DNA of 64,000 nt from Thermobaculum terrenum ATCC BAA-798 (GTDB lineage: Bacteria > Chloroflexota > Chloroflexia > Thermobaculales > Thermobaculaceae): contig NC_013526.1 of assembly GCF_000025005.1 (NCBI RefSeq), positions 124,001 to 188,000 of the forward strand, written 5' to 3'. The notes beneath the pieces were generated by a model, which saw only the letters and a list, made by a program, of their open reading frames with translations, was not told the DNA's origin and did no database searches. This document shows, in pieces, positions 1-14,043 of the stretch. The position numbers were made by a program, and so were the translations under genes. Positions within the stretch are counted from its first letter, which is position 1, and each line of letters opens with the position of its first letter.

Positions 1-1
1 A

Positions 2-349
2 GCCAAAGCTTCGAAGCATCCGGATGAGGCGGCAGAGTTCATCAACTGGTTCATACAGCCCTCTATACAGGAGAAGTACTACGATATATCGGGCTCTACC
101 GCCACGGCCAACGTCAAGCTGGATCCCAAGAAGTACCCATTGGTCAACGAGTGGAACCAGGTGGTAGCGACCCACGAGGCGTATCCACCCACCGACCAGG
201 CTTTCTACAAGGAGCTGATGGATAGCTACTTCCGGGTGCAGGATGCGATCATAGATGGCAGGATGACTCCCGAGCAGGGGGCCAAGGAGATGCAGAAGGC
301 TGCGGAGGAATGGAAGGCGCGGAACCCTGGCAAATGCGGCATGTGTTAG
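2..349 (+). CDS. CUT1 sugar ABC transporter substrate-binding protein, C-terminal fragment
   Basis: The reading frame is open from base 2, so this is the 3' end (about 115 residues) of a gene that begins before the window. The helical C-terminus contains EAAEFINWFIQPSIQEKYY and ends in an AAEEWKARNP-type tail. This resembles the C-lobe end of extracellular solute-binding proteins of carbohydrate transporters, including the binding protein at 57473-59083 whose tail is also AAKAAEEEM. Two permease genes follow on the same strand after a strong hairpin, the usual order binding protein, permease, permease. The substrate is not visible here; the downstream catabolic operon suggests a sugar acid, lactone or related carbohydrate. 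Confidence 0.85.
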   Translation, partial: AKASKHPDEAAEFINWFIQPSIQEKYYDISGSTATANVKLDPKKYPLVNEWNQVVATHEAYPPTDQAFYKELMDSYFRVQDAIIDGRMTPEQGAKEMQKAAEEWKARNPGKCGMC

Positions 350-409: not shown

Positions 410-1369
410 ATGGACTTGCTTGAGGTTTCCAAGGGAGTAGGGGAGAGGCTGGCGGAGCGTGAGGTCTCCAGGGCTTCGTACATGTCCCGTTTTCTCCGTA
501 AGAGGGTGAGCGTGACGCCTTACCTTTTCCTGCTGCCGGCGCTGGTCATATATCTGACATTCCTGGTGTACCCTGCGATCTACTCGTTGTATCTGAGTCT
601 GACCGAGTGGGATGGTCTGTCTCCCCAGAAGAAGTTCGTAGGCTTGCAGAACTACATCAGTCTTTGGGGGGATCCCGTCTTCAGGTTAGCTCTCAGGAAC
701 AACGTCATATGGACGGTGGTCACGCTGCTGGTGCCCACGATCGGAGGGTTAGCTTTGGCGGTAGCGCTCAACCAACCTCTGAGAGGGCGCAACCTATTTC
801 GGGCGGTGTTCTACGCTCCCGGGGTGCTGCCGTTGGTGGCTGTGGCCTCCATCTGGGGATGGATCTACAATCCCAACTTTGGCTTCATCAACGAGATGCT
901 GAGGCACATAGGTTTGGGCAGTCTGGCGCATGGTTGGCTGGCGGACTACGACACGGCGCTGCCTGCGACGTTGGTGACGGCGATCTGGCAGGGGATTGGG
1001 TTGCCGATGATGTTCTACCTGGCAGGGCTGCAGGTGATACCCCAGGAGCAGTACGAGGCGGCGGCGATAGATGGTGCCAATGCCTGGCAGAGGTTTTGGC
1101 ACATCACGTTGCCTTGGCTTAGTCAGACGCACGTGATAGTGATCACGCTGGCTGTGATCTCGTCCTTCAGGGTGTTTGACTTGATCTATGCCATGACGTA
1201 TGGGGGACCTGGGCAGACGACGCAGGTGTTGGCGACGTGGATGTATTTCAACACGTTTCAGTATTACCATGCCGGGTATGGTTCGGCGATAGCATGGGTG
1301 ATAGCGGCCATATCGTTGCTGGTGACCATACCTTACATACGGCTGATGGCCAGATCTCAGCAGGAGTAG
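410..1369 (+). CDS. CUT1 sugar ABC transporter permease (MalF/UgpA type)
   Basis: This 319-residue protein is predicted to be an inner-membrane subunit with about six transmembrane helices. The N-terminal hydrophobic segment begins near residue 38 ([13 protein letters not shown]). The cytoplasmic EAA loop that docks to the ATPase is visible as [20 protein letters not shown], near residues 210-230. The ATG at 410 has a clear GGAGGG ribosome-binding site at 398-403. It pairs with the next permease to form the membrane channel of the importer whose binding protein ends at 349. No ATPase gene is in this cluster, so a shared MsmX/UgpC-type ATPase is expected elsewhere. Confidence 0.93.
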
Positions 1370-1370
1370 T

Positions 1371-2228
1371 GTGATGGCGGTGGAAGTGAGCTTGTCGAGG
1401 AGACCACTGGGTTTAGGTAGGGTGTTGTTGTACTTGGTGCTTGGGTTGCTTGGGGTGGTATGGTTGTCGCCGTTTGTGATAGTGGTGATAACGGCGTTCA
1501 GGTCGGAGGCTGATTTTTTCAACTACGGGGTGTTTTCGATACCGCACTCATTTGAGTGGCGCAACCTTTTGGACGCCTGGGAGATAGGCAACTTTCAGGT
1601 ATATTACCGCAACAGCTTGATAGTATCCTTTCTGAAGGTGCCGTTGGGGATACTGATAGCGTCGTTGGCGGCGTATCCGCTGGCGAAGATGAGGTTTCCG
1701 CTGGACAACAGCATATTTCTATTGTTTCTGATAGGGTTGGCCGTGCCGATACATGTGACGCTGTTGCCCGTGTTCATCTTGATCAGGCATCTGGGGTTGT
1801 CCAACACGCTGTGGTCGTTGTTTCCGCCGTACATAGCTTTTGGGTTGCCGTTGCAGATCTTCGTGATGCGGGGTTTCTTCAAGATGATACCTACGGAGCT
1901 GCTGGAGGCAGCCCGATTGGATGGGGCGACGGAGCTGAGGAACTTCTGGTTGATCATGATGCCGTTGGCCAAGCCGGCGTTGGCCACGCTGTTCATCATA
2001 GATTTTGTGAGCACTTGGAACGAGCTGCTGATAGCGTTGGTGCTGCTCAACTCTGAGAGTGTGAGGACGGTGCCTTTGGGGTTGCTCAACTTCCAGGGGC
2101 AGTACTCGTCGCAGATCACCGATCTGAACGCGGGGATATTGCTGTCGATATTGCCGATCATAGTGGTGTTTCTAGCGTTTCAGAGGTATCTGGTGGCTGG
2201 TTTGACGGGAGGGGCGCTGAAGGAGTAG
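1371..2228 (+). CDS. CUT1 sugar ABC transporter permease (MalG/UgpE type)
   Basis: This 285-residue membrane protein has a single N-terminal helix around residues 15-40 and further helices to the C-terminus. Its EAA loop, [18 protein letters not shown], contacts the transporter ATPase. The C-terminal GGALKE tail is typical of MalG-like permeases. The first codon could be GTG 1371 or ATG 1374, directly after the preceding stop; the overlap-like spacing implies translational coupling. It completes the heterodimeric channel with the 410-1369 product. The substrate is inferred only from context: the genes downstream look like a sugar-acid or lactone catabolic route. Confidence 0.93.
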
Positions 2229-2236
2229 AGGGGAGC

Positions 2237-3307
2237 ATGAGGGGACTGGCTTCTGCACCTGGCAAGATAATCCTGTTTGGGGAGCACGCGATCAACAGGC
2301 AGCAGGCGGGGATCTCGGCGGCGGTCGACAGGCGAGCGTATGCGCTGGTCACCCTGGCTGGGAGCGATGTGGAGCTGGTGTTCAGGGCTGAGGGGCAGCG
2401 GCTGACCTGGGAGGGGCTTGGGGAGTTCCGGGCTAGGGTGGATGCCCTCCGGACGCACCACGATCTCTATGGCATAAGGGATTTGGTCCGCGGGGATTTC
2501 TTTGCGCCCGCCAAGTACGTGCTCTCGCTCCTTAGAGATCGGCTAGGCTACGATGGTGGCTGCAGGGTGGAGTGGAGGTCCGCCCTCCCTATGGGTTCTG
2601 GGATGGGGTCGGGGGCAGCGGCCAGCGCGGCCATGATAGGGGCGTTCGCGACCGCCCTTGGGCGAGATCTGCCGCCGGTGGAGGTGGCGCACCTTGCCTG
2701 GCAGGGGGACATCCTGGCACACGGAGGGGTGGCCTCGGCTTTGGACAGTAGCGCGTGCACTTTGGGAGGATGCGTGCTGGTCTCGACCTCCTGGCCTCCG
2801 AGGACGCTGAGCGGCGTGCTCGAGCTGCCGATAGTGGTCGGTGATACGGGGGTGAGGGCTAGCACCGGCGAGGTGAACACGAGGGTGCGGGAGGCGCTGC
2901 AGAGCCGGCCGCACCTGGGGATGCTCTTTGAGGAGATAGGGCTGCTCGTCGAGCGCGCCGTGCCTGCGTTGGAGAGGGGCGACTTGCAAGTGGTGGGGCG
3001 CCTGATGCACATGAACCACCTGCTGCTGAGGGAGCTGGGTGTCTCCTGCCCGGAGCTGGAGCGGCTGGTGGAGGCCGCCCTCTCGGCGGGCGCCTGGGGG
3101 GCCAAGCTCTCCGGCTCGGGGGGAGGGGGCATAATGGTGGCTTTGGCGCCCGGAGACCGCGTGGCAGAAGTCGCTTGTGCCCTGGAGGGCGCGGGTGGAC
3201 GCCCGATGGCGCTGAGGGTGGGCGTCGAGGGCGTGCGCTCGGAGCCTGTGGAGCTGTGGGACAAATTAGGAGAGGAGATGTTGCAGCATGCGGATTCCGA
3301 AAGGTAG
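2237..3307 (+). CDS. GHMP-family kinase, mevalonate-kinase-like
   Basis: This 356-residue protein has the three GHMP motifs: N-terminal APGKIILFGEHA (residues about 7-18), the phosphate-binding PMGSGMGSGAAASAAM (about 115-130), and C-terminal KLSGSGGGG (near 290). The family phosphorylates small alcohols such as mevalonate, galactose or homoserine using ATP. The GEHA motif resembles mevalonate kinase rather than galactokinase. However, the gene lies 8 bp after a sugar permease and overlaps the next enzyme gene by 20 bp, inside a catabolic operon. I therefore think a sugar-derived substrate is at least as likely as mevalonate. Mevalonate kinase remains the main alternative, since a type 2 isopentenyl diphosphate isomerase is encoded at 50079. 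Confidence 0.8.
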   Translation: MRGLASAPGKIILFGEHAINRQQAGISAAVDRRAYALVTLAGSDVELVFRAEGQRLTWEGLGEFRARVDALRTHHDLYGIRDLVRGDFFAPAKYVLSLLRDRLGYDGGCRVEWRSALPMGSGMGSGAAASAAMIGAFATALGRDLPPVEVAHLAWQGDILAHGGVASALDSSACTLGGCVLVSTSWPPRTLSGVLELPIVVGDTGVRASTGEVNTRVREALQSRPHLGMLFEEIGLLVERAVPALERGDLQVVGRLMHMNHLLLRELGVSCPELERLVEAALSAGAWGAKLSGSGGGGIMVALAPGDRVAEVACALEGAGGRPMALRVGVEGVRSEPVELWDKLGEEMLQHADSER

Positions 3308-3956
3308 GGTCGTAGATCTCACGCACGTGCTGCTGCCCGGGAAGGAGCAGTACACGCTGGAGGTGGCGCGCCGCAACGAGCGCCACGGTCGGGAAGGTGA
3401 CATAATGAGTGTGGTGTATATGTGGTCCCATGTGGGCACCCACGTGGAGGCGCCGTTGCACTTCCTCTCGGACGGTGCGGATACCGCCAGCATCCCCATC
3501 GAGAGGCTGATGGGCCCTGCTATCGTCCTCGACTTCAGGCACAAGCAGGTGAACGAGGCCATCACCTTGGAGGAGGTTAGGTCGGCGGGGGACGTGCGGG
3601 AGGGCGATAGGGTGCTCATCATGACCGGCCGGCACGGCCAGTACCGCACCCCACAGTCGCACGACAGGCCATACCTGTCGGAAGAGGCCGCCAGGTGGCT
3701 GGTCCACGACCGGCGGATCAACTGCCTGGGCACGGACAGCTCAGGCTACGAGGTGCGCGGCGTGGATCATTATCCGAACCACCGCCTGTTCAACGAGGCC
3801 GGGGTGCCGGTCATTGAGTGCTTGTGTAACCTGGTGGAGCTGCGGAGGCAGAGGGTGTTCCTGATAGCGCTGCCGCTGCCCGTCGTCGGGCTGGATGCCT
3901 CGCCGGTGCGGGCTATAGCCATAGAGCCGGAGGACGAGGATGACATCTGGGGTTAG
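3288..3956 (+). CDS. Cyclase / kynurenine-formamidase-like metal-dependent hydrolase
   Basis: This 222-residue cytoplasmic protein begins MRIPKGRVVDLTHVL and carries the metal-binding signature SHVGTHVEAPLHF (residues about 46-58), the H-x-GTH-x-E/D-x-P-x-H pattern of the cyclase family (PF04199). Members hydrolyse formylkynurenine, isatin or cyclic amides and esters using Mn or Zn. The gene overlaps the upstream kinase by 20 bp and the downstream epimerase-like gene by 17 bp, which implies tight co-translation. A role in opening a lactone or other cyclic intermediate of the pathway is an inference. I see no tryptophan-pathway neighbours that would support true kynurenine formamidase activity. 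Confidence 0.82.
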   Translation: MRIPKGRVVDLTHVLLPGKEQYTLEVARRNERHGREGDIMSVVYMWSHVGTHVEAPLHFLSDGADTASIPIERLMGPAIVLDFRHKQVNEAITLEEVRSAGDVREGDRVLIMTGRHGQYRTPQSHDRPYLSEEAARWLVHDRRINCLGTDSSGYEVRGVDHYPNHRLFNEAGVPVIECLCNLVELRRQRVFLIALPLPVVGLDASPVRAIAIEPEDEDDIWG

Positions 3957-4629
3957 GTTGGGGGCTGCGCTCTTCAACGCCGACCACAGCAGGCTGGGGG
4001 AGGAGCTCGCCAGGGTGGAGGCGGCGGGGCTGGATTTCGTGCACCTGGATGTGTTCGACGGGCGGTTAGTGCCCGACCTCGGCTTTCCCCCCAGGACCAT
4101 AGAGCACTTGAGGCCCCTGACTCGACTGCCCTTCGAGGTGCATCTGGCTGCCGAGGAGCCGCTCAGGTTCCTGCCGGTGCTCAGGGATGCGGGGGTGGAC
4201 CTCCTGCTCCTGCACGTCGAGAGCGTCCGCCTGCTGTACGAGGCGGTGTTCTCGGTGAGGGATGCCGGGCTGCGCGTGGGGTTGGTGTTCGGCCTGGGCA
4301 CGCCGCTCGAGCTCCTGCCGCCCGTGGCGGGTATGCTGGATGCGGTGCTGTTGCTCGCCAGGGTGACGGGCGAGGGCACCAGGGGGGCGAGCTTCAACCC
4401 CATGGTCATCCCGAGGGTGAGGCGGGCGCGCGAGCTCATAGATCAGGCCGAAGCGGGCGTAGACCTGCAGGTCGCCGGCGGGGTGCGTCGGGAGCACGTG
4501 CGCGACCTCGTGGCCGCCGGTGCTACCTCCCTGGCTCTGGGGGGAGGGATCTACAGAGTGCCCGACATGGGCGCCGAGGTGCGGGCGATTCGTCGCACGC
4601 TGGCGGGGGAGGCGGTAGATGTCGGCTGA
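3940..4629 (+). CDS. Ribulose-phosphate 3-epimerase-like protein lacking one catalytic Asp
   Basis: This 229-residue TIM-barrel protein aligns by eye with ribulose-phosphate 3-epimerase. His35, Asp37 and Asp40 lie in FVHLDVFDG, and His68 in FEVHL. The phosphate-binding end of the barrel is ALGGGIYRVPD (about 199-209). In the family the fourth metal ligand and acid/base is the Asp of a VDGG motif; here that segment reads LQVAGGV, with Ala179 in place of Asp. The mobile loop that usually reads NPGFGGQ is also replaced (near RVTGEGTRGASF). It is probably a divergent member with a changed reaction or substrate. The ATG at 3940 overlaps the upstream gene. Confidence 0.8.
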   Translation: MTSGVRLGAALFNADHSRLGEELARVEAAGLDFVHLDVFDGRLVPDLGFPPRTIEHLRPLTRLPFEVHLAAEEPLRFLPVLRDAGVDLLLLHVESVRLLYEAVFSVRDAGLRVGLVFGLGTPLELLPPVAGMLDAVLLLARVTGEGTRGASFNPMVIPRVRRARELIDQAEAGVDLQVAGGVRREHVRDLVAAGATSLALGGGIYRVPDMGAEVRAIRRTLAGEAVDVG

Positions 4630-5578
4630 GCGCAGGTGGAGGGTGTTGATAGGCTCGAGGTCCTTCGGCCAGGCCGATCCCTCGCACATCCGGCAGCTGG
4701 AGGAGGCGGGCTGCGAGGTGGTGCCGAACTCCTTGGGCAGGGCCTACAGGGAAGAGGAGCTGCTCGAGCTGCTCCCGGAGATGGACGCGATCATCACGGG
4801 CACGGACGAGCTCACCGCCCGGGTGATAGAGGCGGCGGGTCGCCTGAGGACCATCGCCAAGCACGGCGTGGGACTGGACAATATAGACCTGGAGGCCGCC
4901 AGGCGGCGGGGAATAGTGGTGACCGCCACGCCCGGCGCCATCCACGACTCCGTGGCCGACCTGACCATGGGGCTCATCATCGCCGTGGCCAGGCAGATCG
5001 TGCCCGCCCACAACTCGACGGTCGCTGGGGAGTGGCGCAACTTCGTGGGCCTGGAGCTGAGGGACAAGACGCTGGGGATAATAGGCCTGGGGCGGATAGG
5101 CAAGGGGGTGTGCCTGCGGGCGCTGCCGTTCGGGATGAGGGTGGTGGCCTACGACCTCTATCCAGACGAGGAGTTCGCGCGCGCGCACGGAGTCAGGTTC
5201 GTGGGGCTGGAGGAGCTGCTGGCTACCTCGGACGTGGTCACCCTGCACGCCTCCGCCGGCAACGATGGGAGGCTGCTGGGGCGCCGCGAGATCGGCCTGA
5301 TGAAGCCTGGGGCTATATTTATCAACACGTCTCGTGGTAAGTTAGTGGACGAGGGAGCGCTCTGCGAGGCGCTGGCCGTCGGCAGGCTGGCTGGAGCGGG
5401 GCTGGATGTGTTCGAGGAGGAGCCCCCCAGAGGGCCTCTGCTGGAGCTGCCGAACGTCGTCCTGACGCCCCACATAGCGGGCCAGACCAGGGAGGGCATG
5501 ATCAGGATGGGAGAGATGACCGTGCAGAACTGCCTGCGAGCCCTGCGAGGCGAGGAGCCTCTATACAGGGTGGTATGA
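4619..5578 (+). CDS. D-2-hydroxyacid dehydrogenase (phosphoglycerate dehydrogenase-like)
   Basis: This 319-residue NAD-dependent enzyme of the D-isomer-specific 2-hydroxyacid dehydrogenase family. The substrate segment KHGVGLDNIDL (near 81-91) matches SerA-type enzymes. The Rossmann motif GIIGLGRIGKG follows near 155. Catalytic Arg lies in NTSRGKLVDE and catalytic His in LTPHIAGQ near 286. There is no C-terminal ACT domain, so it is probably not a regulated SerA. It overlaps the preceding gene by 11 bp, with a GGGGGAGG site upstream. In this operon it probably oxidises or reduces a sugar-acid intermediate. A similar protein starts at 63228 in the polyol cluster. Confidence 0.9.
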   Translation: MSAERRWRVLIGSRSFGQADPSHIRQLEEAGCEVVPNSLGRAYREEELLELLPEMDAIITGTDELTARVIEAAGRLRTIAKHGVGLDNIDLEAARRRGIVVTATPGAIHDSVADLTMGLIIAVARQIVPAHNSTVAGEWRNFVGLELRDKTLGIIGLGRIGKGVCLRALPFGMRVVAYDLYPDEEFARAHGVRFVGLEELLATSDVVTLHASAGNDGRLLGRREIGLMKPGAIFINTSRGKLVDEGALCEALAVGRLAGAGLDVFEEEPPRGPLLELPNVVLTPHIAGQTREGMIRMGEMTVQNCLRALRGEEPLYRVV

Positions 5579-5588
5579 GGGGGAAGAG

Positions 5589-6386
5589 ATGGTGACGGAC
5601 AAGTTGAGGCTAGATGGCAAGGTAGCGCTGGTGACTGGTGGTAGCCAGGGACTGGGCAGGGCCATGGCGGTGGCGTTGGCGGAGGCCGGGGCGGACGTGG
5701 CGCTCTGCGCCCGCAGCCGGGAGAGGCTGTGCGCCGTGGCCGATGAGATCCGCGCCCTGGGCAGGGGGGCCCTCGTGCTGCCGGCAGACCTGTCGGACGT
5801 CGATGCCGCCGTGGGGGTGGTGGACGACGTCGTCCGCCGGCTGGGGAGGCTGGACGTGCTGGTGACCTCCGCCGCCACCCAGCTCCGGAAGCCCGCGCTC
5901 GAGGTCACCCTCGAGGAGTGGGACCGCCTGGTGGCGGTGAACCTCCGCTCCGTGTACTTCATGTGCCAGCGCGCCGCCCAGCACATGATCGCGCGCGAGG
6001 ACGTGCCGGCTGGGGCTTCCAGGGGCAAGATCATCAACATAGCCTCTCTAACCTCCGTGGGGGCCTGGCCCGACGTGAGCGTGTACGCCACGACGAAGGG
6101 GGGCATCCTGCAGATGACGAGGGCGTTCGCGCTGGAGTGGGCCAGGTACCACATCTGCGTCAACGCCATAGGCCCTGGCACCTTCCACACGGAGCTGACC
6201 GATGCCCTGTACTCGGACCCGGAGCGCGCCCAGAGGATAGTGTCGCGCATCCCGCTGGGCAGAGCCGGGCTGCCGGAGGACCTGGCGGGGGCGGTGGTCT
6301 ACCTGGCCTCTCCCGCCTCGGACTACGTTACCGGCCAGGTGCTGTGGGTGGATGGGGGCTTTATGCTGATGGGAGCGGGCCTATGA
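5589..6386 (+). CDS. Short-chain dehydrogenase/reductase
   Basis: This 265-residue classical SDR has the cofactor motif TGGSQGLGRA (residues about 16-25). The usual NNAG structural motif is replaced here by a TSAA segment. The catalytic YATTK lies near 158-162, and the C-terminus VDGGFMLMG is typical of FabG/gluconate-dehydrogenase-like enzymes. It probably oxidises a secondary alcohol of a sugar, lactone or sugar acid with NAD(P). It follows the hydroxyacid dehydrogenase by 10 bp and overlaps the start of the lactonase-like gene by 4 bp (ATGA). If the lactonase assignment is right, this enzyme or the zinc dehydrogenase may produce the lactone; that step is inferred. Confidence 0.92.
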   Translation: MVTDKLRLDGKVALVTGGSQGLGRAMAVALAEAGADVALCARSRERLCAVADEIRALGRGALVLPADLSDVDAAVGVVDDVVRRLGRLDVLVTSAATQLRKPALEVTLEEWDRLVAVNLRSVYFMCQRAAQHMIAREDVPAGASRGKIINIASLTSVGAWPDVSVYATTKGGILQMTRAFALEWARYHICVNAIGPGTFHTELTDALYSDPERAQRIVSRIPLGRAGLPEDLAGAVVYLASPASDYVTGQVLWVDGGFMLMGAGL

Positions 6387-8314
6387 ACCCGAGGGTGATG
6401 CTTTACGGCCGCGATCAACCTCTGCCGGAGAGGGTGCCCCTCTCGGCCGGTCCCCTGAGGATGGTGTTCGAGGGCGGGGACCTGCGCTACATCAGGTTGG
6501 GCGACCTGGAGGTCTGGCGCAGGGTCTACGTGGCGGTGCGCGACCGGAACTGGAACACCATCCCCGCCAGCATCTCCAACCTGGATGTGGTGGCCGGGGA
6601 GGGCTGGTTCCGGGTGCGGTACGACGCGGAGCACGTGTCCGGAGATATAGACTTCTACTGGCACGCCAGCCTCGAGGGGGATCGGGATGGCCGGATCACC
6701 TGCGAGATGGATGGGGTGGCCAGGTCCACCTTCCTGCGCAACAGGATAGGCTTCTGCCTGCTGCACCCCATAAGGGAGTGCGCGGGCCGCAGGGTGGAGG
6801 TCGAGCACGCCGATGGATCCCTGGAGGAGGGGGTGTTCCCCAGGGTGATATCGCCCCACCAACCTTTCATGGATATCAGGGGGTTGGCGCATGAGCTACC
6901 GAGCGGTGGCTGGGCCAGGGCCAGCTTCGAGGGGGACGTGTTCGAGATGGAGGACCAGCGTAACTGGACGGATGCCTCCTTCAAGACCTACTCCACCCCG
7001 CTGGCGCTCCCCTTCCCGGTGGAGGTGCCCGCAGGCACGCGGATACACCAGAGGGTCACGCTCTGGCTCGAAGGCGGTGAGGTCTCACAGCAGTACATCG
7101 TTCGGGAGGCAGGGCGTGTGGAGCTGTCGCTATCACGGGCGAGCGGGCAGGTACCCGAGTTGGGGCTGTGCGTGCCGAGCGATGGGAGGGCACACTCCCC
7201 CCGGGAGGTCGACAGGCTGCGGGCTATGGGCCCGACGCACCTGCGAGCCGAGCTCTGGATGCGCGGCCGATGGCGGGACGAGCTCGCGCGGGCGCTGTCG
7301 CTGGCGGGGGCGCTGGGCTGCCGGCTGGAGCTGGCGGTGTTCGCTCCGGAGGAGGCCGGCTGGGCGCCCGCGCTGCTGGACGCGGTCGGGCCGCACGCTG
7401 CCCAGGTGTCCCGGGTGCTGCTCTTCCACGAGGCGGACAGGCTCACCAGAGCGGAGCAGCTTGAGCACCTGCGGGCCGAGCTCTCGCGGCGGGGGCTGCG
7501 CCTGCAGGTAGGGGGCGGGACCGATGCCTACTTCGCCCAGCTCAACCGCAGCAGGCCCGAGCCCTCCAAGCTGGACTGTGTGTGCTACTCCGCCAATCCC
7601 CAGGTGCACGCCGAGGATAACTCCTCCCTGGTCGAGAACCTCGAGGGCCAGCTTTATCCCGTGGTGAGCGCCAGAGAGGTGTTCGGTGAGCGGCCGGTGT
7701 ACGTGACCCCCCTCACCCTTAGGCCGAGGTTCAACCCCGCGGCGACCGCGCCGGAGCCGCCGGCGAGCGAGGGGGAGCTGCCCTCGCAGGTGGACCCCAG
7801 GCAGATGTCGCTGTTTGGGGCGGCGTGGACCCTGGGAGCGCTCACCTACCTGGCGCTGGGGGGCGCTAGCGGCGTGACCTGCTACGAGACCGTGGGCTGG
7901 CTCGGGGTGATGGAGGGCGCGCAGGGCTCCCCCCTGCCGGAAGCCTTCGGGTCCGTGCCGGGCGGGGTCTTCCCGCTCTACCACGTGCTGGCCGACTGGT
8001 GCGAGTTCGTCGGTGGGGAGTGGCGGGCCCTGGAGTCGAGCGATCCGCTCTCCGCCGTGGGGATCATGCTCCGCCGCGGGGGGAGAGCGACGCTGCTCGT
8101 GGCCAACCTGCTGCCCACGGCCAACAGGATCGTGATCAGCGGGGAGGATCTGGAGCTCCGGCTGAGGGTGCTGGATCAGGGGAACTACATGCGAGCCGTG
8201 ACCGACCCCGAAGGCTACAGGGAGTCGGAGTGGAGGCGCGTAGCGAAGTGGGACGGCAGGTTCGAGCTCGAGCTCGGGCCCTACGCCGTCGCTCGGATGG
8301 ACGTAGCAAGCTAG
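6383..8314 (+). CDS. apnL: D-apionate lactonase (ApnL)-like protein
   Basis: The start is the ATG at 6383 that overlaps the SDR stop, giving 643 residues; a longer open frame upstream is a shadow of the SDR gene. The N-terminal region has the order LYGRDQPL, LRYIRLGDLEV, VRDRNWNT, LHPIRECAGR, VEHADGSLEEGVFP, ISPHQPFMDI and EMEDQRNWTDASFKTY. I recognise this order from the D-apionate lactonase family described in bacterial apiose catabolism. A second barrel-like domain and a C-terminal beta domain follow. No signal peptide is seen, so it is cytoplasmic. The gene neighbours differ from published apionate pathways (no RuBisCO-like decarboxylase or oxidoisomerase is visible), so the true substrate may be another aldonolactone. 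Confidence 0.75.
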   Translation: MNPRVMLYGRDQPLPERVPLSAGPLRMVFEGGDLRYIRLGDLEVWRRVYVAVRDRNWNTIPASISNLDVVAGEGWFRVRYDAEHVSGDIDFYWHASLEGDRDGRITCEMDGVARSTFLRNRIGFCLLHPIRECAGRRVEVEHADGSLEEGVFPRVISPHQPFMDIRGLAHELPSGGWARASFEGDVFEMEDQRNWTDASFKTYSTPLALPFPVEVPAGTRIHQRVTLWLEGGEVSQQYIVREAGRVELSLSRASGQVPELGLCVPSDGRAHSPREVDRLRAMGPTHLRAELWMRGRWRDELARALSLAGALGCRLELAVFAPEEAGWAPALLDAVGPHAAQVSRVLLFHEADRLTRAEQLEHLRAELSRRGLRLQVGGGTDAYFAQLNRSRPEPSKLDCVCYSANPQVHAEDNSSLVENLEGQLYPVVSAREVFGERPVYVTPLTLRPRFNPAATAPEPPASEGELPSQVDPRQMSLFGAAWTLGALTYLALGGASGVTCYETVGWLGVMEGAQGSPLPEAFGSVPGGVFPLYHVLADWCEFVGGEWRALESSDPLSAVGIMLRRGGRATLLVANLLPTANRIVISGEDLELRLRVLDQGNYMRAVTDPEGYRESEWRRVAKWDGRFELELGPYAVARMDVAS

Positions 8315-8332
8315 ATATTACGGAGGTGAGCC

Positions 8333-9346
8333 ATGCAAGCTGTCATCATGGATGCCCCCAGGCAGGCGCGTGTGGGCCAGTGGGAGGCCCGCCAGCCAGG
8401 CGAGGGTGAGGTGCTGGTCAGGGTGAGGTCCGTGGGCGTGTGCGCCGGCGACATGTACTTCTACCTGGGCAAGAACCCCTACGCCGTCTATCCCCAGGTG
8501 TGCGGTCACGAGATATCCGGCGTGGTGGAGTCCCTGGGGGAGGGCGTGCGGGGGCTGAGCGCGGGCGACCATGTGGTGGTCGAGCCCTTCATCGGTTGCG
8601 GCCGGTGCTACGCCTGCCGGATCGGCAAGCGCAACTGCTGCCGCCGGCTGCAGATCATCGGCATCCACCGCCCCGGAGGGTTCGCGGAGTACGTGCTGGC
8701 CCCGGCGCAGAACGTGCACAAGATCCCAGAGTCCCTGCCCTTCGAGCGGGCGTCGCTGTCGGAGCCGATAGCCATAGCTGTGCAGGCCAGCCGAAGGGGC
8801 CAGATCACGGCCGAGGACCAGGTGCTGGTGATGGGCTGTGGCCCCATAGGCCTGGCCTTGATCGATGTGCTCAGCGCCAAGGGGGCACAGGTCTTCGCCA
8901 CAGATATCAACCCCGCGAGGCTGGACGCGGCCTCGCAGCTGGGCGCACGGCCCCTGCCGGGGGGCGAGGAGCTGCCCTCCAGGGTGTCGGAGCTCACCGA
9001 GGGGGACGGTATGCCGGTGGTGATCGAGGCGACAGGCAACCCACAGGCGATGCGGCAGGCGGTAGACCTGGTGGCGCCTGGGGGCAGGGTGGTCATCGTG
9101 GGGCTAGTGCCCCAGGGGGTGGATGTGCCCATGCCTGGCCTGGACTTCACCCGGAAGGAGATGACCATCCTGGGCTCGAGGGCGTCGGTCAACTGCTTCC
9201 CGGAGGCGATCGAGCTGCTGGCGGGCGGCAAGATCCGCTACGCGGACCTGGCCACAACCTTCAGCTTGTGGGATGCGCCAGCGCTGTTCGCCGACTGGGC
9301 GCAGCATCCGGGCTCCGTGCAGAAGGCGATACTGAGGGTCGACTGA
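8333..9346 (+). CDS. Zinc-dependent medium-chain dehydrogenase (threonine/sorbitol dehydrogenase type)
   Basis: This 337-residue MDR enzyme has catalytic-zinc residues in VCGHEISG (near 58-66). Structural-zinc cysteines are spaced as in GCGRCYACRIGKRNCC (about 87-102), and the Rossmann segment is VMGCGPIGLALIDVL. A GGAGGTGAG ribosome-binding site precedes ATG 8333. It is the last gene of the operon, 18 bp after the lactonase-like gene. The family oxidises polyols, sugar acids (for example L-galactonate) or threonine with NAD. Context favours a polyol or sugar-acid substrate. The operon then meets a convergent regulator gene three bases downstream. Confidence 0.92.
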   Translation: MQAVIMDAPRQARVGQWEARQPGEGEVLVRVRSVGVCAGDMYFYLGKNPYAVYPQVCGHEISGVVESLGEGVRGLSAGDHVVVEPFIGCGRCYACRIGKRNCCRRLQIIGIHRPGGFAEYVLAPAQNVHKIPESLPFERASLSEPIAIAVQASRRGQITAEDQVLVMGCGPIGLALIDVLSAKGAQVFATDINPARLDAASQLGARPLPGGEELPSRVSELTEGDGMPVVIEATGNPQAMRQAVDLVAPGGRVVIVGLVPQGVDVPMPGLDFTRKEMTILGSRASVNCFPEAIELLAGGKIRYADLATTFSLWDAPALFADWAQHPGSVQKAILRVD

Positions 9347-9349
9347 TCG

Positions 9350-10051
9350 CTAGCCCCTATCCAGCCGGTAGCCCACGCCCTGGATGGCGCGCACGCAGGT
9401 CCGATCAGCGCCCGCCTGCTCAAGGCGGTTGCGCAACCGGTTGACGTACACCTTGACGACCGACTCGTCGTAGTGCTCCTCCGCGCCGTGGAGGGCGCGG
9501 AGGAGCTCCCTCTTGGAGACTACCTTCCCGCCGGCCTCCATCAGCGCCCTGAAGATCTGGAACTCGCAGGGGGTGAGGGGCACTACCCTGTCGCCGTAGC
9601 GGGCCTCGTACCTGCCCACGTCCAGCTGGAAGCGCCCGTGGACCAGCACGCCTCCCTCCCCCAGCCCCTCCCTGGTGAGGAACACCACCCGCAGGAGCAG
9701 CTCCTCCAGTGGGTAGGGGGCGACCAGCATCTGGAAGGGCGCAGGCCAATCCTGCTTGAGCTGCACCAGCCGTTGCCAGTAGGTGGCGATCAGCTCCTCC
9801 CTCACCACGATCATGAGCGGCACGGAGAACCTCTTCTCCCAGAGCTCCTGCATCAGCTGCTCCATCTCGATGGATCGTGTGCTGACATCGATCACCCAGA
9901 TGTGCGAGGGCTGCTCCGTCCAGCTCTCCAGATCGCTGCTTGCCAGCTTGACGCTCCAACCCGCCATCTCCAGGTCTCGATCGGCTTGGGTGTTGGATCC
10001 CAGAGGGGAGTAGATCAGAGCGGTTGGCAGAGATGATCCCGAATCATTCAC
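9350..10051 (-). CDS. OmpR/PhoB-type DNA-binding protein with a degenerate receiver-like domain
   Basis: This 233-residue protein has a typical C-terminal winged helix. It runs from about residue 140 to the end and includes RYEARYGDRVVPLTPCEFQI, KRELLRALHG and YVNRLRNRLE, ending GVGYRL. The N-terminal ~120 residues look receiver-like, with a VID segment near 54. They lack the acidic pair expected at the first strand (it reads TALIYSPLG) and the conserved Lys (it reads VAPYPLEEL). Phosphorylation by a histidine kinase is therefore doubtful, and none is encoded nearby. It converges on the sugar operon with a 3-bp gap, and could regulate that operon or an unlinked target. Confidence 0.85.
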   Translation of the reverse strand: MNDSGSSLPTALIYSPLGSNTQADRDLEMAGWSVKLASSDLESWTEQPSHIWVIDVSTRSIEMEQLMQELWEKRFSVPLMIVVREELIATYWQRLVQLKQDWPAPFQMLVAPYPLEELLLRVVFLTREGLGEGGVLVHGRFQLDVGRYEARYGDRVVPLTPCEFQIFRALMEAGGKVVSKRELLRALHGAEEHYDESVVKVYVNRLRNRLEQAGADRTCVRAIQGVGYRLDRG

Positions 10052-10160
10052 TCCAGGCCACCTGCAAGGACGTCAACTTAATTCTGTCCCGGCGCTGTGT
10101 TTTTTAGGTCACACATCCGTTGAGAAACCCAAGATAAATGGTATAGGAGGCACATACAAA

Positions 10161-10185
10161 GGGAGTGGAGGCATCCTCCACTCCC
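10161..10185 (-). terminator. Strong hairpin downstream of the repeat-protein gene
   Basis: A perfect 11-bp stem (10161-10171 with 10175-10185) with a 3-base loop lies 24 bp beyond the stop of the minus-strand gene ending at 10210. Read on the minus strand, it is followed by TTTGTATG, a weak U-tract. It is a plausible intrinsic terminator for that gene. Confidence 0.7.
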
Positions 10186-10209
10186 TCGGGAAGACTCATT
10201 TGCCCAGGG

Positions 10210-11751
10210 CTACTCTCCGCCGGAGTTGGTGAACCTCAGGACGTTGATGCCCCTGCCTATCCTCACGTTGGCCGTGCCCGCACCCAGATCGGTGGAGATG
10301 ATGCCGCCGTAGGGGGCCGGTGGGCTTGCGCCCCATGGGCTGTAGGTGATGTTGGTGACTGAGTAGCCGTTGGTGGCCTCGTCCACCATGGTCGGCGTGC
10401 CCAACGGGAACCTGACGATCTCCAGCTCTGGATCGTTGTCCAGGTTGGCCCGGAGCAGGTTGCAGTAGCCAACTCTGATGTTGCGCACCCAGGTGCCGTA
10501 CTCGTTGGTGATCAGGAACCTGAAGGCCGTGCCGGACGGCACACCGCCACCGTTGAGCTTGCAGATCTTCAGGGCGCCGAAGCCTCCGACGTCGTTGAAG
10601 GTCACCGTGGTAACGTTCGCCGATATGGCGACCAAGGCGACCGCGTCGCTGTACATGCTGCCCAGGTTCTCAGAGAGCAGCGCGCCCGCGGGGTTGGTTG
10701 AGATGTCGTTGACGTAGAAGCCGAGGTAGGGCAGCTCCTCGGAGACGGACAGCCTGGTGTTCATCAGGAACCTCATGCCGCCGTTGTAGATCACGCAGCG
10801 GCCAGCGCGCACCGTCAGGTTGCCGGGGGCTGCGCCGTTGGTGTCCGGCAGCACGTTGCCGTTCTGGCGAACCGTGAAGTAGAACGGCAGCAGGCTCTGG
10901 TAGGCGCCGCTGACGGTCTTGCAGACCTTGAGGACGCCGGTGGGCATCGGGGCGTTGTAGAACGTGACCACCGTCTCGTTCGTCTCATCGCCAGCCACCA
11001 CGTTGATGATCGCCCACCTGCCGGAGGCGCTCCAGCTCACGAGCATGTTGTCGCCCGTCTGTATGGCCTCTGCCTCCACGTCGGTCAGCATGGTGCCGGT
11101 GTCTGGCAGCTCGCGCACGGTCACCTGGCCGTACGGCACGGGGATGAGGTCAGTGCACTCACCTATGCCCAGGCTGTAGGTGTCGTCGCGACCGTTGATG
11201 CGGAACCTGAAGTCGTTGTTCGTCAGGTAGCCTAGCGGGTCGTTGGTGTCCGAAGCTTCCTTGCAGATCTGGATGTAGCCCAGCACCGCGTCGGTGAAGG
11301 TCACCAGGGTGGTCTCGCCCTCCACTACCGCCACGCGCGCCACGCCCAAGGTGTTGGCGTCGGGGTCGGGGTTCATGTTGCGGGAGATCAGCCTGTTGGT
11401 GTTGCCCTGCGAGCCACCCAGGGCGGTGATATCCGCCACGATCACCCCTGGCTGGTACTGCTCGCGGACGGTGGCGGAGTCACCCGGTACGTCTATGGGG
11501 GCAGTACACTCGCCGGGGAAGAGTGACCAGCTCATGCCGGGCATCTCGTCTATGGTGAACACGAACTCGGTGTCCGCCAGAGAAGCGTCCAGCCCGCTGG
11601 CATCGCGCAGCTCTTTGCAGATCTCGAGGTCGTCACCCTGTGCCTTGGCAGCCCTGGGGGCGGACACCGCCGCGAGCATCGGCAGCAGGGTAGCAAGTAC
11701 CAGTAACACGGTAAGAGGTAGGTTTATGACTGTACGAAGCTTAGTATACAT
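10210..11751 (-). CDS. Secreted protein of four tandem beta-domains, each with a cysteine pair
   Basis: I place the start at ATG 11751, preceded by AAGGAG, rather than at an upstream in-frame ATG; this gives 513 residues and a clean signal peptide (hydrophobic core about 12-30, Ala-rich cleavage region near 32-37). Four similar ~110-residue units follow, at about 42-155, 159-266, 273-386 and 393-510. Each opens with an ICK/VCK motif and has a second Cys in a G-E/R/Y-C motif (45/82, 163/199, 277/319, 397/430). Each ends in a TVVTF-like strand. The pattern resembles prealbumin-like/SpaA-type folds of surface proteins. There is no LPXTG motif or C-terminal membrane anchor. I do not recognise a specific function; structural or adhesive roles are possible. 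Confidence 0.75.
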   Translation of the reverse strand: MYTKLRTVINLPLTVLLVLATLLPMLAAVSAPRAAKAQGDDLEICKELRDASGLDASLADTEFVFTIDEMPGMSWSLFPGECTAPIDVPGDSATVREQYQPGVIVADITALGGSQGNTNRLISRNMNPDPDANTLGVARVAVVEGETTLVTFTDAVLGYIQICKEASDTNDPLGYLTNNDFRFRINGRDDTYSLGIGECTDLIPVPYGQVTVRELPDTGTMLTDVEAEAIQTGDNMLVSWSASGRWAIINVVAGDETNETVVTFYNAPMPTGVLKVCKTVSGAYQSLLPFYFTVRQNGNVLPDTNGAAPGNLTVRAGRCVIYNGGMRFLMNTRLSVSEELPYLGFYVNDISTNPAGALLSENLGSMYSDAVALVAISANVTTVTFNDVGGFGALKICKLNGGGVPSGTAFRFLITNEYGTWVRNIRVGYCNLLRANLDNDPELEIVRFPLGTPTMVDEATNGYSVTNITYSPWGASPPAPYGGIISTDLGAGTANVRIGRGINVLRFTNSGGE

Positions 11752-12012: not shown

Positions 12013-12054
12013 AATATTGTTCGTTAGTTGTAATGAATTGTTGTGGAGGTGCAG

Positions 12055-14043
12055 ATGCTCTGTGGTAAGCGCTCCGGCCTGATCTGGATGTTGTTGACCG
12101 CATTGCTCCTGATAGCTTGCGGGGCTCCCTCGGCAGAGGTGACGCCCACCCCCGGTACATCTACCCCTTCCCCTTCGCCCACCGCAGTGCCCGCCAGCCC
12201 AGCCTCACCCACCCCCGAGGCTACCCAGTCGGCCACCAGGACCATCAAGCACGCGATGGGCACCACCGAGGTGCCGGCCCATCCCAAGCGGGTGGTGGTG
12301 CTGGACACCGGCGAGCTCGATACCGCCATGACGCTTGGGGTCAAGCCTGTGGGGGCGGTGGAGGCCATCGCCGGCGAGGGGCTGCCTGCCTACTTGCAGG
12401 GCACGGAGGGCATACAGCTCGTGGGCACGATCAACGAGCCCAACCTGGAGAAGATCGCCGCCCTCAAGCCCGACCTGATCTTGAGCAGCAAGATGAGGCA
12501 CGAGGCCATATACAAACAGCTCTCTCAGATCGCCCCCACGGTGTTCGCTGAGCGGACCGGCGTGACCTGGAAGGAGAACTTCGACCTGTTCGCCCGCGCC
12601 CTGGGCAAGGAAGAGGAGGCCGAGCGGGTCAAGCAGGAGTACCAGGCGCACGTCCAGGAATTTCGGCGCAAGATGGGCGATCGCCTCAAGCAGACCGAGG
12701 TCACGGTGATAAGGTTTCTCCCCGGCGACACCCGCCTGTACCAGAAGGAGTCGTTCATCGGCACCGTGCTGGAGGACCTGGGGCTGCCCCGACCGCCCTC
12801 GCAGGACGTGAACGACTTCGCGATGTACAACGTCAGCGAGGAGTTCATTCCGCAGATAGGGGGTGACGTGATCTTCGTGACCGTCTACGGCAACGAGGCT
12901 GACACCGCCAAGCGGGACTTCATGACCAGCCCTCTGTGGCAGAAGCTGGAGGCCGTGCGCGCCGGCAGGGTGTACGAGGTATCCGACGACCTGTGGATGC
13001 TGGGCATCGGGTACACCGCGGCCAACGGCGTGATAGACGACCTGGAGCGCTACCTGCTGGGCGAGGGGGCGCAGGTCACCCCCACGGCTGCCAGCGGCGA
13101 GGGCACCTCGGCCTTCCCGGTCACGATCGAGCATAAGTACGGCAAGACGGTGATCCAGAAGCAGCCCAAGCGGGTCGTCGTCATAGGCTTCAACGACCAG
13201 GACCCGGTGCTGGCGCTGGGCGTCAAGCCCGTGGCCATCCGCGACTGGTTCGGCAACCAGCCGTACGGCGTGTGGCCCTGGGCGAGGGACGAGCTCGGCG
13301 ATGCCAAGCCGGTGCTGCTCCCCTCGGGAGACCTCAACTTCGAGCAGATATCTGCCCTCAAGCCCGACCTGATCGTGGGCATATCCTCGGGCATGACGGA
13401 TAAGGACTACAGGACCCTGTCCAAGATCGCCCCGACGATAGCTCAGCCCAAGGGCTACGTGGAGTATGGCACCCCCTGGCAGGAGCAGACCAGGATCATA
13501 GGCAGGGCCCTGGGGAAGGAGCAGGAGGCGGAGGAGCTGGTGTCCAAAGTAGAGGCGCAGATAGAGGCCGTGCGCCGGCAGTACCCGCAGCTCGAGGGAG
13601 CGACCGGCCTGGTGGCGGCCAGGTTCGAGGGCACCCTCTACGTCTACGGCGAGCAGGATTCGCGGGGCCGCTTCCTCTCCCAGCTGGGGATGAGGATGCC
13701 GAAGGAGGTCGCGGATCTGGCCGCCGACCAGTTCTACGCTACCCTCAGCCAGGAGCGCATGGACCTGCTGGACGTGGATGCTCTCATCTGGCTGATAGGC
13801 GACCAGGACAGACGAGAGCTGGAGAGCGACCCTATTTACACCAGGCTGAAGGTCCACACGGAGGGCAGGGACATCTTTCTGGATTCCAACAGCACCCTCA
13901 GCGGGGCGATATCCTTCAGCACCGTGCTGAGCATCCCCTACACCCTGGAGCACCTGGTGCCACAGCTGGTGGATGCCCTGGATGGCAAGCCCTCTTCGGC
14001 GCTGCCCGTGGGCTACGCGGGCGCGAGCTACATAGGAGGCTGA
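12055..14043 (+). CDS. Iron-siderophore binding lipoprotein with two tandem periplasmic-binding domains
   Basis: The start at ATG 12055 has GTGGAGGTG as its ribosome-binding site; the GTG at 12043 belongs to that site. The 662-residue product starts with a lipoprotein signal (lipobox LLIAC, Cys near residue 20) and a Pro/Ser/Thr linker. Two homologous FhuD/BtuF-type domains follow. Both open with HPKRVVVL or QPKRVVVIG and contain ALKPDLI. Domain 1 spans about 60-335 and domain 2 about 350-640. Class III binding proteins normally have one such domain, so this is an internal duplication. It probably delivers ferric siderophores or heme-like ligands to the FecCD permeases at 14880-16963. The first gene of a five-gene operon. 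Confidence 0.9.
   Translation: MLCGKRSGLIWMLLTALLLIACGAPSAEVTPTPGTSTPSPSPTAVPASPASPTPEATQSATRTIKHAMGTTEVPAHPKRVVVLDTGELDTAMTLGVKPVGAVEAIAGEGLPAYLQGTEGIQLVGTINEPNLEKIAALKPDLILSSKMRHEAIYKQLSQIAPTVFAERTGVTWKENFDLFARALGKEEEAERVKQEYQAHVQEFRRKMGDRLKQTEVTVIRFLPGDTRLYQKESFIGTVLEDLGLPRPPSQDVNDFAMYNVSEEFIPQIGGDVIFVTVYGNEADTAKRDFMTSPLWQKLEAVRAGRVYEVSDDLWMLGIGYTAANGVIDDLERYLLGEGAQVTPTAASGEGTSAFPVTIEHKYGKTVIQKQPKRVVVIGFNDQDPVLALGVKPVAIRDWFGNQPYGVWPWARDELGDAKPVLLPSGDLNFEQISALKPDLIVGISSGMTDKDYRTLSKIAPTIAQPKGYVEYGTPWQEQTRIIGRALGKEQEAEELVSKVEAQIEAVRRQYPQLEGATGLVAARFEGTLYVYGEQDSRGRFLSQLGMRMPKEVADLAADQFYATLSQERMDLLDVDALIWLIGDQDRRELESDPIYTRLKVHTEGRDIFLDSNSTLSGAISFSTVLSIPYTLEHLVPQLVDALDGKPSSALPVGYAGASYIGG

Follow-up and report, generated by a model that had tools for sequence, protein, structure and literature searches.

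Apiose is a branched sugar of the rhamnogalacturonan II of plant walls. Oxidative D-apiose catabolism was reportedly described by Carter et al. in 2018 (Nat Chem Biol 14:696), and Thermobaculum terrenum, the source of the operon analyzed here, is a heat-loving soil bacterium. The oxidative route, as summarised in PMC6302742, shares with this operon a Gfo/Idh enzyme of the apiose dehydrogenase type, an ApnL lactonase and a sugar ABC transporter. Some canonical loci share its apiosidase-like gene as well. The two differ downstream, since the genome of T. terrenum lacks ApnO and the RuBisCO-like OiaX, the locus lacks OiaK, and a GHMP kinase, a "cyclase", a protein like ribulose-phosphate 3-epimerase (RPE) and three other dehydrogenases are found instead. 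We propose that the operon probably serves the uptake and catabolism of D-apiose and that an alternative, undescribed but conserved downstream branch takes the place of the later steps published for the oxidative route.

Layout of the operon and its front end

The window, i.e. the whole stretch of 64,000 nucleotides analyzed, has its first base inside a twelve-gene operon at positions 120246-133346 of chromosome 2 (C2) of T. terrenum YNP1. The seven genes at 2237-9346 are all on the + strand, overlap or lie at most 18 bases apart, and follow two BPD_transp_1 permeases, which is the tightly coupled arrangement described in the original prediction. The features of the operon in the window are as follows.

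1..349, + strand: ABC sugar-binding protein, C-terminal end (stop at window position 349; SBP_bac_1, 138 bits)
410..1369, + strand: ABC sugar permease 1 (PF00528, 67 bits)
1371..2228, + strand: ABC sugar permease 2 (PF00528, 74 bits)
2237..3307, + strand: GHMP kinase, mevalonate-kinase-like in sequence (TIGR00549, 189.6 bits; cut-off 163)
3288..3956, + strand: PF04199 metal-dependent hydrolase, "cyclase" (PF04199, 102.9 bits)
3940..4629, + strand: RPE-fold protein whose VDGG motif lacks its catalytic Asp (PF00834, 144 bits)
4619..5578, + strand: D-2-hydroxyacid dehydrogenase of the phosphoglycerate dehydrogenase / glyoxylate reductase type (PF02826, 190 bits; TIGR01327, 267 bits; glyoxylate reductase NF009714, 245 bits)
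5589..6386, + strand: SDR dehydrogenase, KduD / gluconate 5-dehydrogenase-like (PF13561, 205 bits; TIGR01832, 237.6 bits, under its cut-off)
6383..8314, + strand: relative of the ApnL-type D-apionate lactonase (NF049900, 342 bits, E = 5.8e-102)
8333..9346, + strand: zinc-dependent medium-chain alcohol dehydrogenase (PF08240, 108 bits; PF00107, 98.5 bits)

The gene for the sugar-binding protein begins outside the window, at C2 position 122943 (8943-10349 of our locus L098, equal to C2:122943-124349). A Gfo/Idh dehydrogenase gene and one for an apiosidase-like glycosidase lie in the same operon, 1.1-3.8 kb upstream of the first base of the window. The best solved relative of the Gfo/Idh protein (C2:120246-121277) is 5UHW, which we take to be the D-apiose dehydrogenase ApsD, with a score of 235.7 bits compared to 84.6 for the next. 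The protein is homologous to the ApnL-adjacent Gfo/Idh genes of other loci and is 36% identical to a Sinorhizobium Gfo/Idh that adjoins ApnL near an ApnO homologue; by family, it is predicted to be an ApsD-type apiose dehydrogenase. The glycosidase matches PF13204 (Apiosidase, GH140-like) at 75.9 bits against a gathering cut-off of 26.5, and DUF5060 was matched upstream as well. The PF13204 match is modest when compared to the 229-261 bits of the copies in loci L110 and L031, and family membership makes the protein a predicted apiosidase. Apiosidase-like genes are present in L144, L005 and L110 as well.

These upstream genes change two points of the original prediction, which had noted no apiose dehydrogenase of the Gfo/Idh type and had assigned the first lactone to the SDR or the zinc enzyme. 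A Gfo/Idh gene lies just outside the window, and since it is of the apiose dehydrogenase type, neither the SDR nor the zinc enzyme need form that lactone. The presence of Gfo/Idh, apiosidase-like and sugar-binding genes upstream suggests that the pathway begins as the known route does, with apiosidase, apiose dehydrogenase and ApnL. Since the apiosidase-like gene lies beside the Gfo/Idh gene, the likely substrate is D-apiose itself instead of an unknown rare aldose. The original prediction is supported in part, in that the later enzymes fit no published apiose route.

The profile search bore out 6383-8314 as an ApnL relative, although its score on NF049900 (D-apionate lactonase) is under the curated equivalog cut-off of 750 bits. 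The relative in L020, a complete ApsD/ApnO/OiaK/OiaX-type locus, scores 327, so the cut-off is uninformative for this branch of ApnL. The protein had no Pfam match in the profile search, and no solved structure related to ApnL by sequence was found. It has relatives of 38-51% identity, many from loci that also encode Gfo/Idh, ApnO, OiaK and OiaX, and the Sinorhizobium relative is 34% identical. Elsewhere, ApnL relatives accompany OiaK (449 bits), OiaX (518 bits) and a KARI-like ApnO candidate.

Gene content, conservation and co-distribution of the back-end genes

OiaX (RuBisCO-like, NF042437) was not found in the T. terrenum genome by genome-wide profile search, nor in the four other genomes with the back-end module, where only an 84-bit RuBisCO-type fragment in genome G184 was detected. 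ApnO oxidoisomerase gave no match in T. terrenum or the four other module genomes with a query that does detect ApnO at 21 ApnL loci as well as at that of Sinorhizobium. The absence of a RuBisCO-like decarboxylase and an oxidoisomerase, noted in the original prediction for the visible partners, extends to the whole genome. The downstream enzymes match none of the published apiose routes, in agreement with the prediction of an ApnL-containing sugar-acid operon unlike them. Among the GHMP-type ApnL loci, none was found to carry the OiaK kinase.

The GHMP kinase, cyclase and RPE-like subfamilies match exactly the same five of 400 Chloroflexota genomes, and ApnL is present in all five. The same back-end genes occur in mostly the same order in G295 (loci L144 and L100), L005 and L014, and a further full set was found in Abditibacteriota. 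Zinc dehydrogenase homologues adjoin the module in L100 and L014 with 62-64% identity. The set is split in G184, G229 and G301: in G301 the RPE-like and GHMP kinase genes do not share a contig, and in G229 the cyclase gene is on another contig. None of the D-2-hydroxyacid dehydrogenase, the SDR and the zinc enzyme adjoins the core in G229, nor do the first two in G301, and these three may therefore be non-essential steps. The module did not appear among the best matches listed for plasmids, where the cyclase hits were remote and the RPE hits were true RPEs.

The gene neighbourhoods of 91 ApnL loci were compared. Loci L061 and L149 stem from one genome and count as one, and the pairs L018/L104 and L003/L100 were treated likewise. 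The set of GHMP kinase, cyclase and RPE-like genes never occurs together with ApnO, OiaK or OiaX, and 51 of the 91 loci lie outside the three recognised context types. As the T. terrenum protein also scores below the NCBIfam cut-off, the ApnL family may cover other lactones. In the ApnL tree, GHMP-type ApnLs are scattered among those of canonical apiose loci with at least three label changes, as expected if modules were swapped around one conserved lactonase.

Properties of the kinase, the RPE-fold protein and the cyclase

The GHMP kinase resembles mevalonate kinase in its fold, its glycine-rich loops and its score above the curated TIGR00549 cut-off. Unlike mevalonate kinase, it has no isoprenoid context and is always found with ApnL, and T. 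terrenum uses the MEP pathway. DXR of that pathway is present in four of the five module genomes (G000, G295, G229 and G301), and the fifth, G184, carries a separate and better mevalonate kinase (248 bits). A housekeeping mevalonate kinase was rejected on these grounds. The protein is a predicted sugar-acid kinase of the pathway, for which the name mevalonate kinase would be wrong.

The RPE-like protein shares with ribulose-phosphate 3-epimerase (PF00834) the fold (model pLDDT 89, TM 0.9), the metal histidines, one catalytic aspartate and the DVxDG motif. It differs in that Ala replaces both the VDGG aspartate and the PSIL serine in all seven members aligned, as the prediction of an altered epimerase had anticipated, and the NPGFGGQ loop is replaced by TGEGxRG. 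The two catalytic aspartates on opposite faces that an RPE requires are thus not both present. Members score 284-427 bits in the five genomes, and no other RPE exceeds 168. Since the subfamily is set apart by score and T. terrenum has a separate normal RPE at C1:308455-309093, a housekeeping epimerase role was rejected. The protein may instead be a metal-dependent C-C lyase that acts on a phosphorylated intermediate and replaces OiaX, an assignment that falls a little short of probable.

The cyclase matches the arylformamidase / isatin hydrolase family (PF04199) at 103 bits and retains the histidines of the metal motif. It departs from that family in having HxGTHxE in place of HxGTHxD and in its sugar-acid context. 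Copies in two other Chloroflexota genomes are 77-81% identical, and the protein is perhaps a second lactonase. An overlap of two G184 contigs at the cyclase gene was rejected: identity is 71% over 381 bases, and the contigs are therefore not one stretch but reflect two cyclase copies or a mixed assembly.

Proposed pathway and alternatives

Judging by family membership, the apiosidase-like glycosidase would free apiose, the ABC transporter would import it, the Gfo/Idh enzyme would oxidise it to apionolactone and ApnL would open the lactone to D-apionate. The following steps are less certain. The GHMP kinase may phosphorylate a hydroxymethyl group on apionate itself or on its oxidised form. At least one of the three further dehydrogenases may oxidise an apionate intermediate, and the RPE-fold protein, which retains one acid-base aspartate and three metal ligands, may break a C-C bond to give a metal-bound enediolate in the place of OiaX. 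The original scheme of oxidation, lactone opening, phosphorylation and rearrangement fits this in outline, except for the enzyme of the first oxidation; its later steps are inferred.

In the version that we favour, the zinc enzyme or the SDR would oxidise the free branch CH2OH to an aldehyde, retro-aldol cleavage of C2-C3 would yield triose phosphate and glyoxylate, and the D-2-hydroxyacid dehydrogenase, the neighbour of the lyase, would reduce the glyoxylate. Cleavage by this retro-aldol chemistry is doubtful. So is the full proposal of one more D-apiose pathway, where an RPE-derived aldolase would cleave apionate, once phosphorylated and oxidised, to triose phosphate and glyoxylate, together with a sugar-acid kinase derived from mevalonate kinase and a neofunctionalised PF04199 enzyme. 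The scheme leaves the cyclase without a convincing role. Malate synthase beside ApnL was rejected as a general sign of glyoxylate, as it occurs only in family f57 (G229 and G301); it was not found in the T. terrenum genome, and glyoxylate is less convincing as a general rule for that reason. The carbon sources listed for YNP1 are glucose, fructose, ribose, sorbitol, sucrose, xylose and xylitol, and apiose is not on the list (PMC3035366).

With the same operon and substrate, the RPE-fold protein could instead be a decarboxylase analogous to OiaX, such that C2 oxidation, rearrangement to a beta-keto acid, phosphorylation and loss of CO2 would lead to a tetrulose phosphate. The slots would parallel the known route, with a dehydrogenase for ApnO, the GHMP kinase for OiaK and the RPE-like TIM barrel for the RuBisCO-like one; decarboxylation and epimerisation share a metal-bound enediolate, and the RPE-like protein and the D-2-hydroxyacid dehydrogenase form one open frame in L014 (14504-16180). 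However, in the known route it is ApnO that carries out the hydroxymethyl migration to the beta-keto acid, and this operon has neither an ApnO homologue nor another obvious isomeroreductase, which leaves this reading rather unlikely. It is also unlikely that the operon degrades some other plant sugar or sugar acid, branched or rare, and that ApnL opens a different lactone. This reading would suit the distance of ApnL from its Sinorhizobium relative and from the NCBIfam cut-off, the altered metal or catalytic residues of both the cyclase and the RPE-like protein, and the three extra dehydrogenases. It sits poorly with the ApsD-type Gfo/Idh, with the apiosidase-like genes here and in three other loci, and with the position of GHMP-type ApnLs among those of canonical apiose loci. 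It is very improbable that the kinase and the other genes have housekeeping roles unrelated to ApnL (as mevalonate kinase, ribulose-phosphate epimerase and 2-hydroxyacid dehydrogenase) and lie beside it by chance: the kinase and the RPE-like protein do pass the TIGR00549 and PF00834 profiles, but the genome has DXR and a normal RPE of its own, and the subfamilies co-occur in exactly five of 400 genomes, always with ApnL.

A D-apiose operon with an alternative downstream branch, if true, would mean another way for bacteria to use apiose, one that dispenses with the RuBisCO-like enzymes of the established route. Since T. terrenum is a thermophile that has been cultured and fully sequenced, its enzymes are likely easy to make and assay. 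The pathway would also give a testable function to at least three subfamilies that databases would misname, namely those of the GHMP kinase, the PF04199 protein and the RPE-fold protein.

Gene content of the operon

The Thermobaculum terrenum YNP1 genome totals 3,101,581 bases (2,026,947 + 1,074,634), in agreement with the published chromosome sizes (PMC3035366). The operon is located on chromosome 2 (C2), of which the window is C2:124001-188000. The seven coupled genes of the original prediction (2237-9346) were confirmed, all being on the forward strand and overlapping or separated by no more than 18 bases. Six of them have Pfam matches, the ApnL-like (D-apionate lactonase-like) gene being the exception. 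The absence of a Gfo/Idh dehydrogenase holds for the window but not for the operon, which our reading of the upstream stretch (L098) extends as follows.

C2:120246-121277, Gfo/Idh dehydrogenase, upstream of the window
C2:121271-122860, protein with DUF5060, PF13204 Apiosidase and Collagen_bind_2, upstream of the window
C2:122943-124349, ABC sugar-binding protein (SBP), 3' end at window 1-349
2237-3307, +, GHMP kinase
3288-3956, +, cyclase (PF04199)
3940-4629, +, RPE-like protein
4619-5578, +, D-2-hydroxyacid dehydrogenase (DHDH)
5589-6386, +, SDR
6383-8314, +, ApnL-like protein
8333-9346, +, zinc dehydrogenase (ZnDH)

The top solved relative of the Gfo/Idh protein is 5UHW (235.7 bits; runner-up 84.6). 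Its database entry is titled only "oxidoreductase", and we take it to be the Agrobacterium apiose dehydrogenase. The protein is also 36% identical to a Sinorhizobium Gfo/Idh whose gene adjoins ApnL, with a homologue of the oxidoisomerase ApnO nearby. An AraC/PocR-type regulator, a possible regulator of the operon, and a second sugar ABC permease pair are encoded upstream on the opposite strand (L098 313-3835). Elsewhere in the window, the open frame 12043-14043, its translation read by eye, appears to encode a single protein with a tandem pair of substrate-binding modules of the iron/siderophore type.

Conservation and co-distribution of the module

We compared 80 ApnL loci from GTDB genomes and more from a set of 301 Chloroflexota genomes, 15 of which have ApnL; many of the loci are from metagenome-assembled genomes with short contigs.

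Gene order of the module
Window genome: Gfo/Idh-apiosidase-SBP-2 permeases-GHMP-cyclase-RPE-DHDH-SDR-ApnL-ZnDH
G295 (same family): Gfo/Idh-apiosidase-GHMP-cyclase-RPE-DHDH-SDR on one contig; ApnL and ZnDH on a second
L005 (Chloroflexia; draft with frameshifts): apiosidase-GHMP-cyclase-RPE-DHDH-SDR-Gfo/Idh-ApnL
L014 (Abditibacteriota): Gfo/Idh-ApnL-SDR-GHMP-cyclase-(RPE+DHDH, single open frame)-ZnDH-NAD epimerase

The module is split in three other Chloroflexota genomes (G184, G229 and G301). Compared with the window proteins, the cyclases are 57-81% identical, the RPE-like proteins 55-71% and the GHMP kinases 42-49%; linked DHDH copies are 53-68% identical. Subfamily profiles built from 3-5 members, with systematic sampling in Chloroflexota, placed the RPE-like protein, cyclase and GHMP kinase in the identical five of 400 genomes, all five of which have ApnL. 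The RPE-like profile scored 284-427 bits in these five versus at most 168 in all others (ordinary RPEs). For each extra marker, the probability of drawing those four other genomes again from 399 by chance is about 1e-9, a figure made rough by kinship among genomes; counted by families only (3 of ~90), it is about 1e-5, again rough owing to relatedness. Since markers co-occur even when they lie on separate contigs, as RPE and GHMP do in G301 and the cyclase does in G229, linkage by itself does not explain the pattern.

The GHMP kinase scores above the TIGR00549 mevalonate kinase cut-off, and automatic annotation would misname it accordingly. A housekeeping role for the kinase and RPE-like genes was rejected because DXR of the MEP pathway is found in four of the five genomes, the fifth (G184) has a separate, better mevalonate kinase (248 vs 145 bits), and an ordinary RPE is encoded elsewhere in the window genome (C1:308455-309093, on the other contig). 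Genome-wide searches of all five found neither ApnO nor OiaX, the RuBisCO-like decarboxylase of the published oxidative route. A literature search of open papers found no prior description of a GHMP/cyclase/RPE-like apiose branch.

Proposed pathway

From family knowledge, the apiosidase-like protein would free apiose, followed by import, oxidation and lactone opening. The cyclase is a possible second lactonase, as its family includes a dienelactone hydrolase; its metal motif is HxGTHxE in the module versus the usual HxGTHxD. The GHMP kinase would phosphorylate a pathway intermediate; mevalonate, its presumed ancestral substrate, likewise belongs to the branched hydroxy acids and carries both a tertiary alcohol and a CH2OH terminus.

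In all seven RPE-like proteins the VDGG aspartate and PSIL serine are replaced by Ala and the DVMDG methionine by Phe. TGEGxRG takes the place of the NPGFGGQ loop, with one frameshifted copy as the exception. The first aspartate and the two histidines are retained, as is the RPE fold in the predicted structure. The loss of the second aspartate argues against two-base epimerisation. Ancestral RPE chemistry passes through a metal-bound enediolate. The protein may cleave a C-C bond, and retro-aldol cleavage of C3-formyl, phosphorylated apionate would give triose phosphate and glyoxylate. A decarboxylase role is nearly as good an explanation. We prefer the retro-aldol version, as it avoids any rearrangement of the carbon skeleton and offers a role to the dehydrogenases. 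It also places a glyoxylate-reductase-like DHDH directly after the proposed lyase, the two sharing a single open frame in L014. The glyoxylate-consuming enzyme malate synthase is encoded next to ApnL in G229 and G301, two genera of one Chloroflexota family (L149 10433-11953; L110 5570-7087), but is missing from the window genome.

ApnL and its neighbourhoods

The predicted ApnL membership of 6383-8314 was upheld by the NCBIfam match (E 5.8e-102), although its 342 bits fall below the curated 750. As a relative encoded in L020, a canonical apiose locus with the complete gene set, reaches only 327, this cut-off shuts out a whole branch and is no argument against function. The predicted structure (pLDDT 91.8) is similar to glycoside hydrolases of the GH79/GH30 and GH97 families, at ~15% identity and with a best E of 1.9e-16. 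At least 90% of members keep Glu502, which lies where a barrel strand ends. A search for solved structures related in sequence found none. ApnL is a predicted lactonase with a glycosidase-like fold.

Three neighbourhood types showed zero overlap among 91 ApnL loci: ApnO, the kinase OiaK and/or OiaX (23); HpcH/HpaI aldolase (10, nine also with a 2-hydroxyacid dehydrogenase); and the GHMP kinase set (7 entries, 6 genomes). OiaK and OiaX were named from NCBIfam matches (449 and 518 bits), and ApnO from a KARI-like/PGDH_C match and its position in the locus. A compact operon of three genes, DHDH, HpcH/HpaI aldolase and ApnL (L007 4844-8632; likewise L004, L008, L011, L017, L033 and L102) occurs in Poribacteria, Latescibacterota, Planctomycetes and Chloroflexi; these operons contain no ApnO, OiaK, OiaX or GHMP set and are possibly yet another ApnL route. 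In a FastTree tree of 89 ApnLs, the GHMP-type proteins are dispersed. Their placement requires 5 changes of label, of which at least 3 cross branches with good support, these counts being rough for a tree of this kind. This dispersal suggests that downstream modules were swapped around a conserved ApnL.
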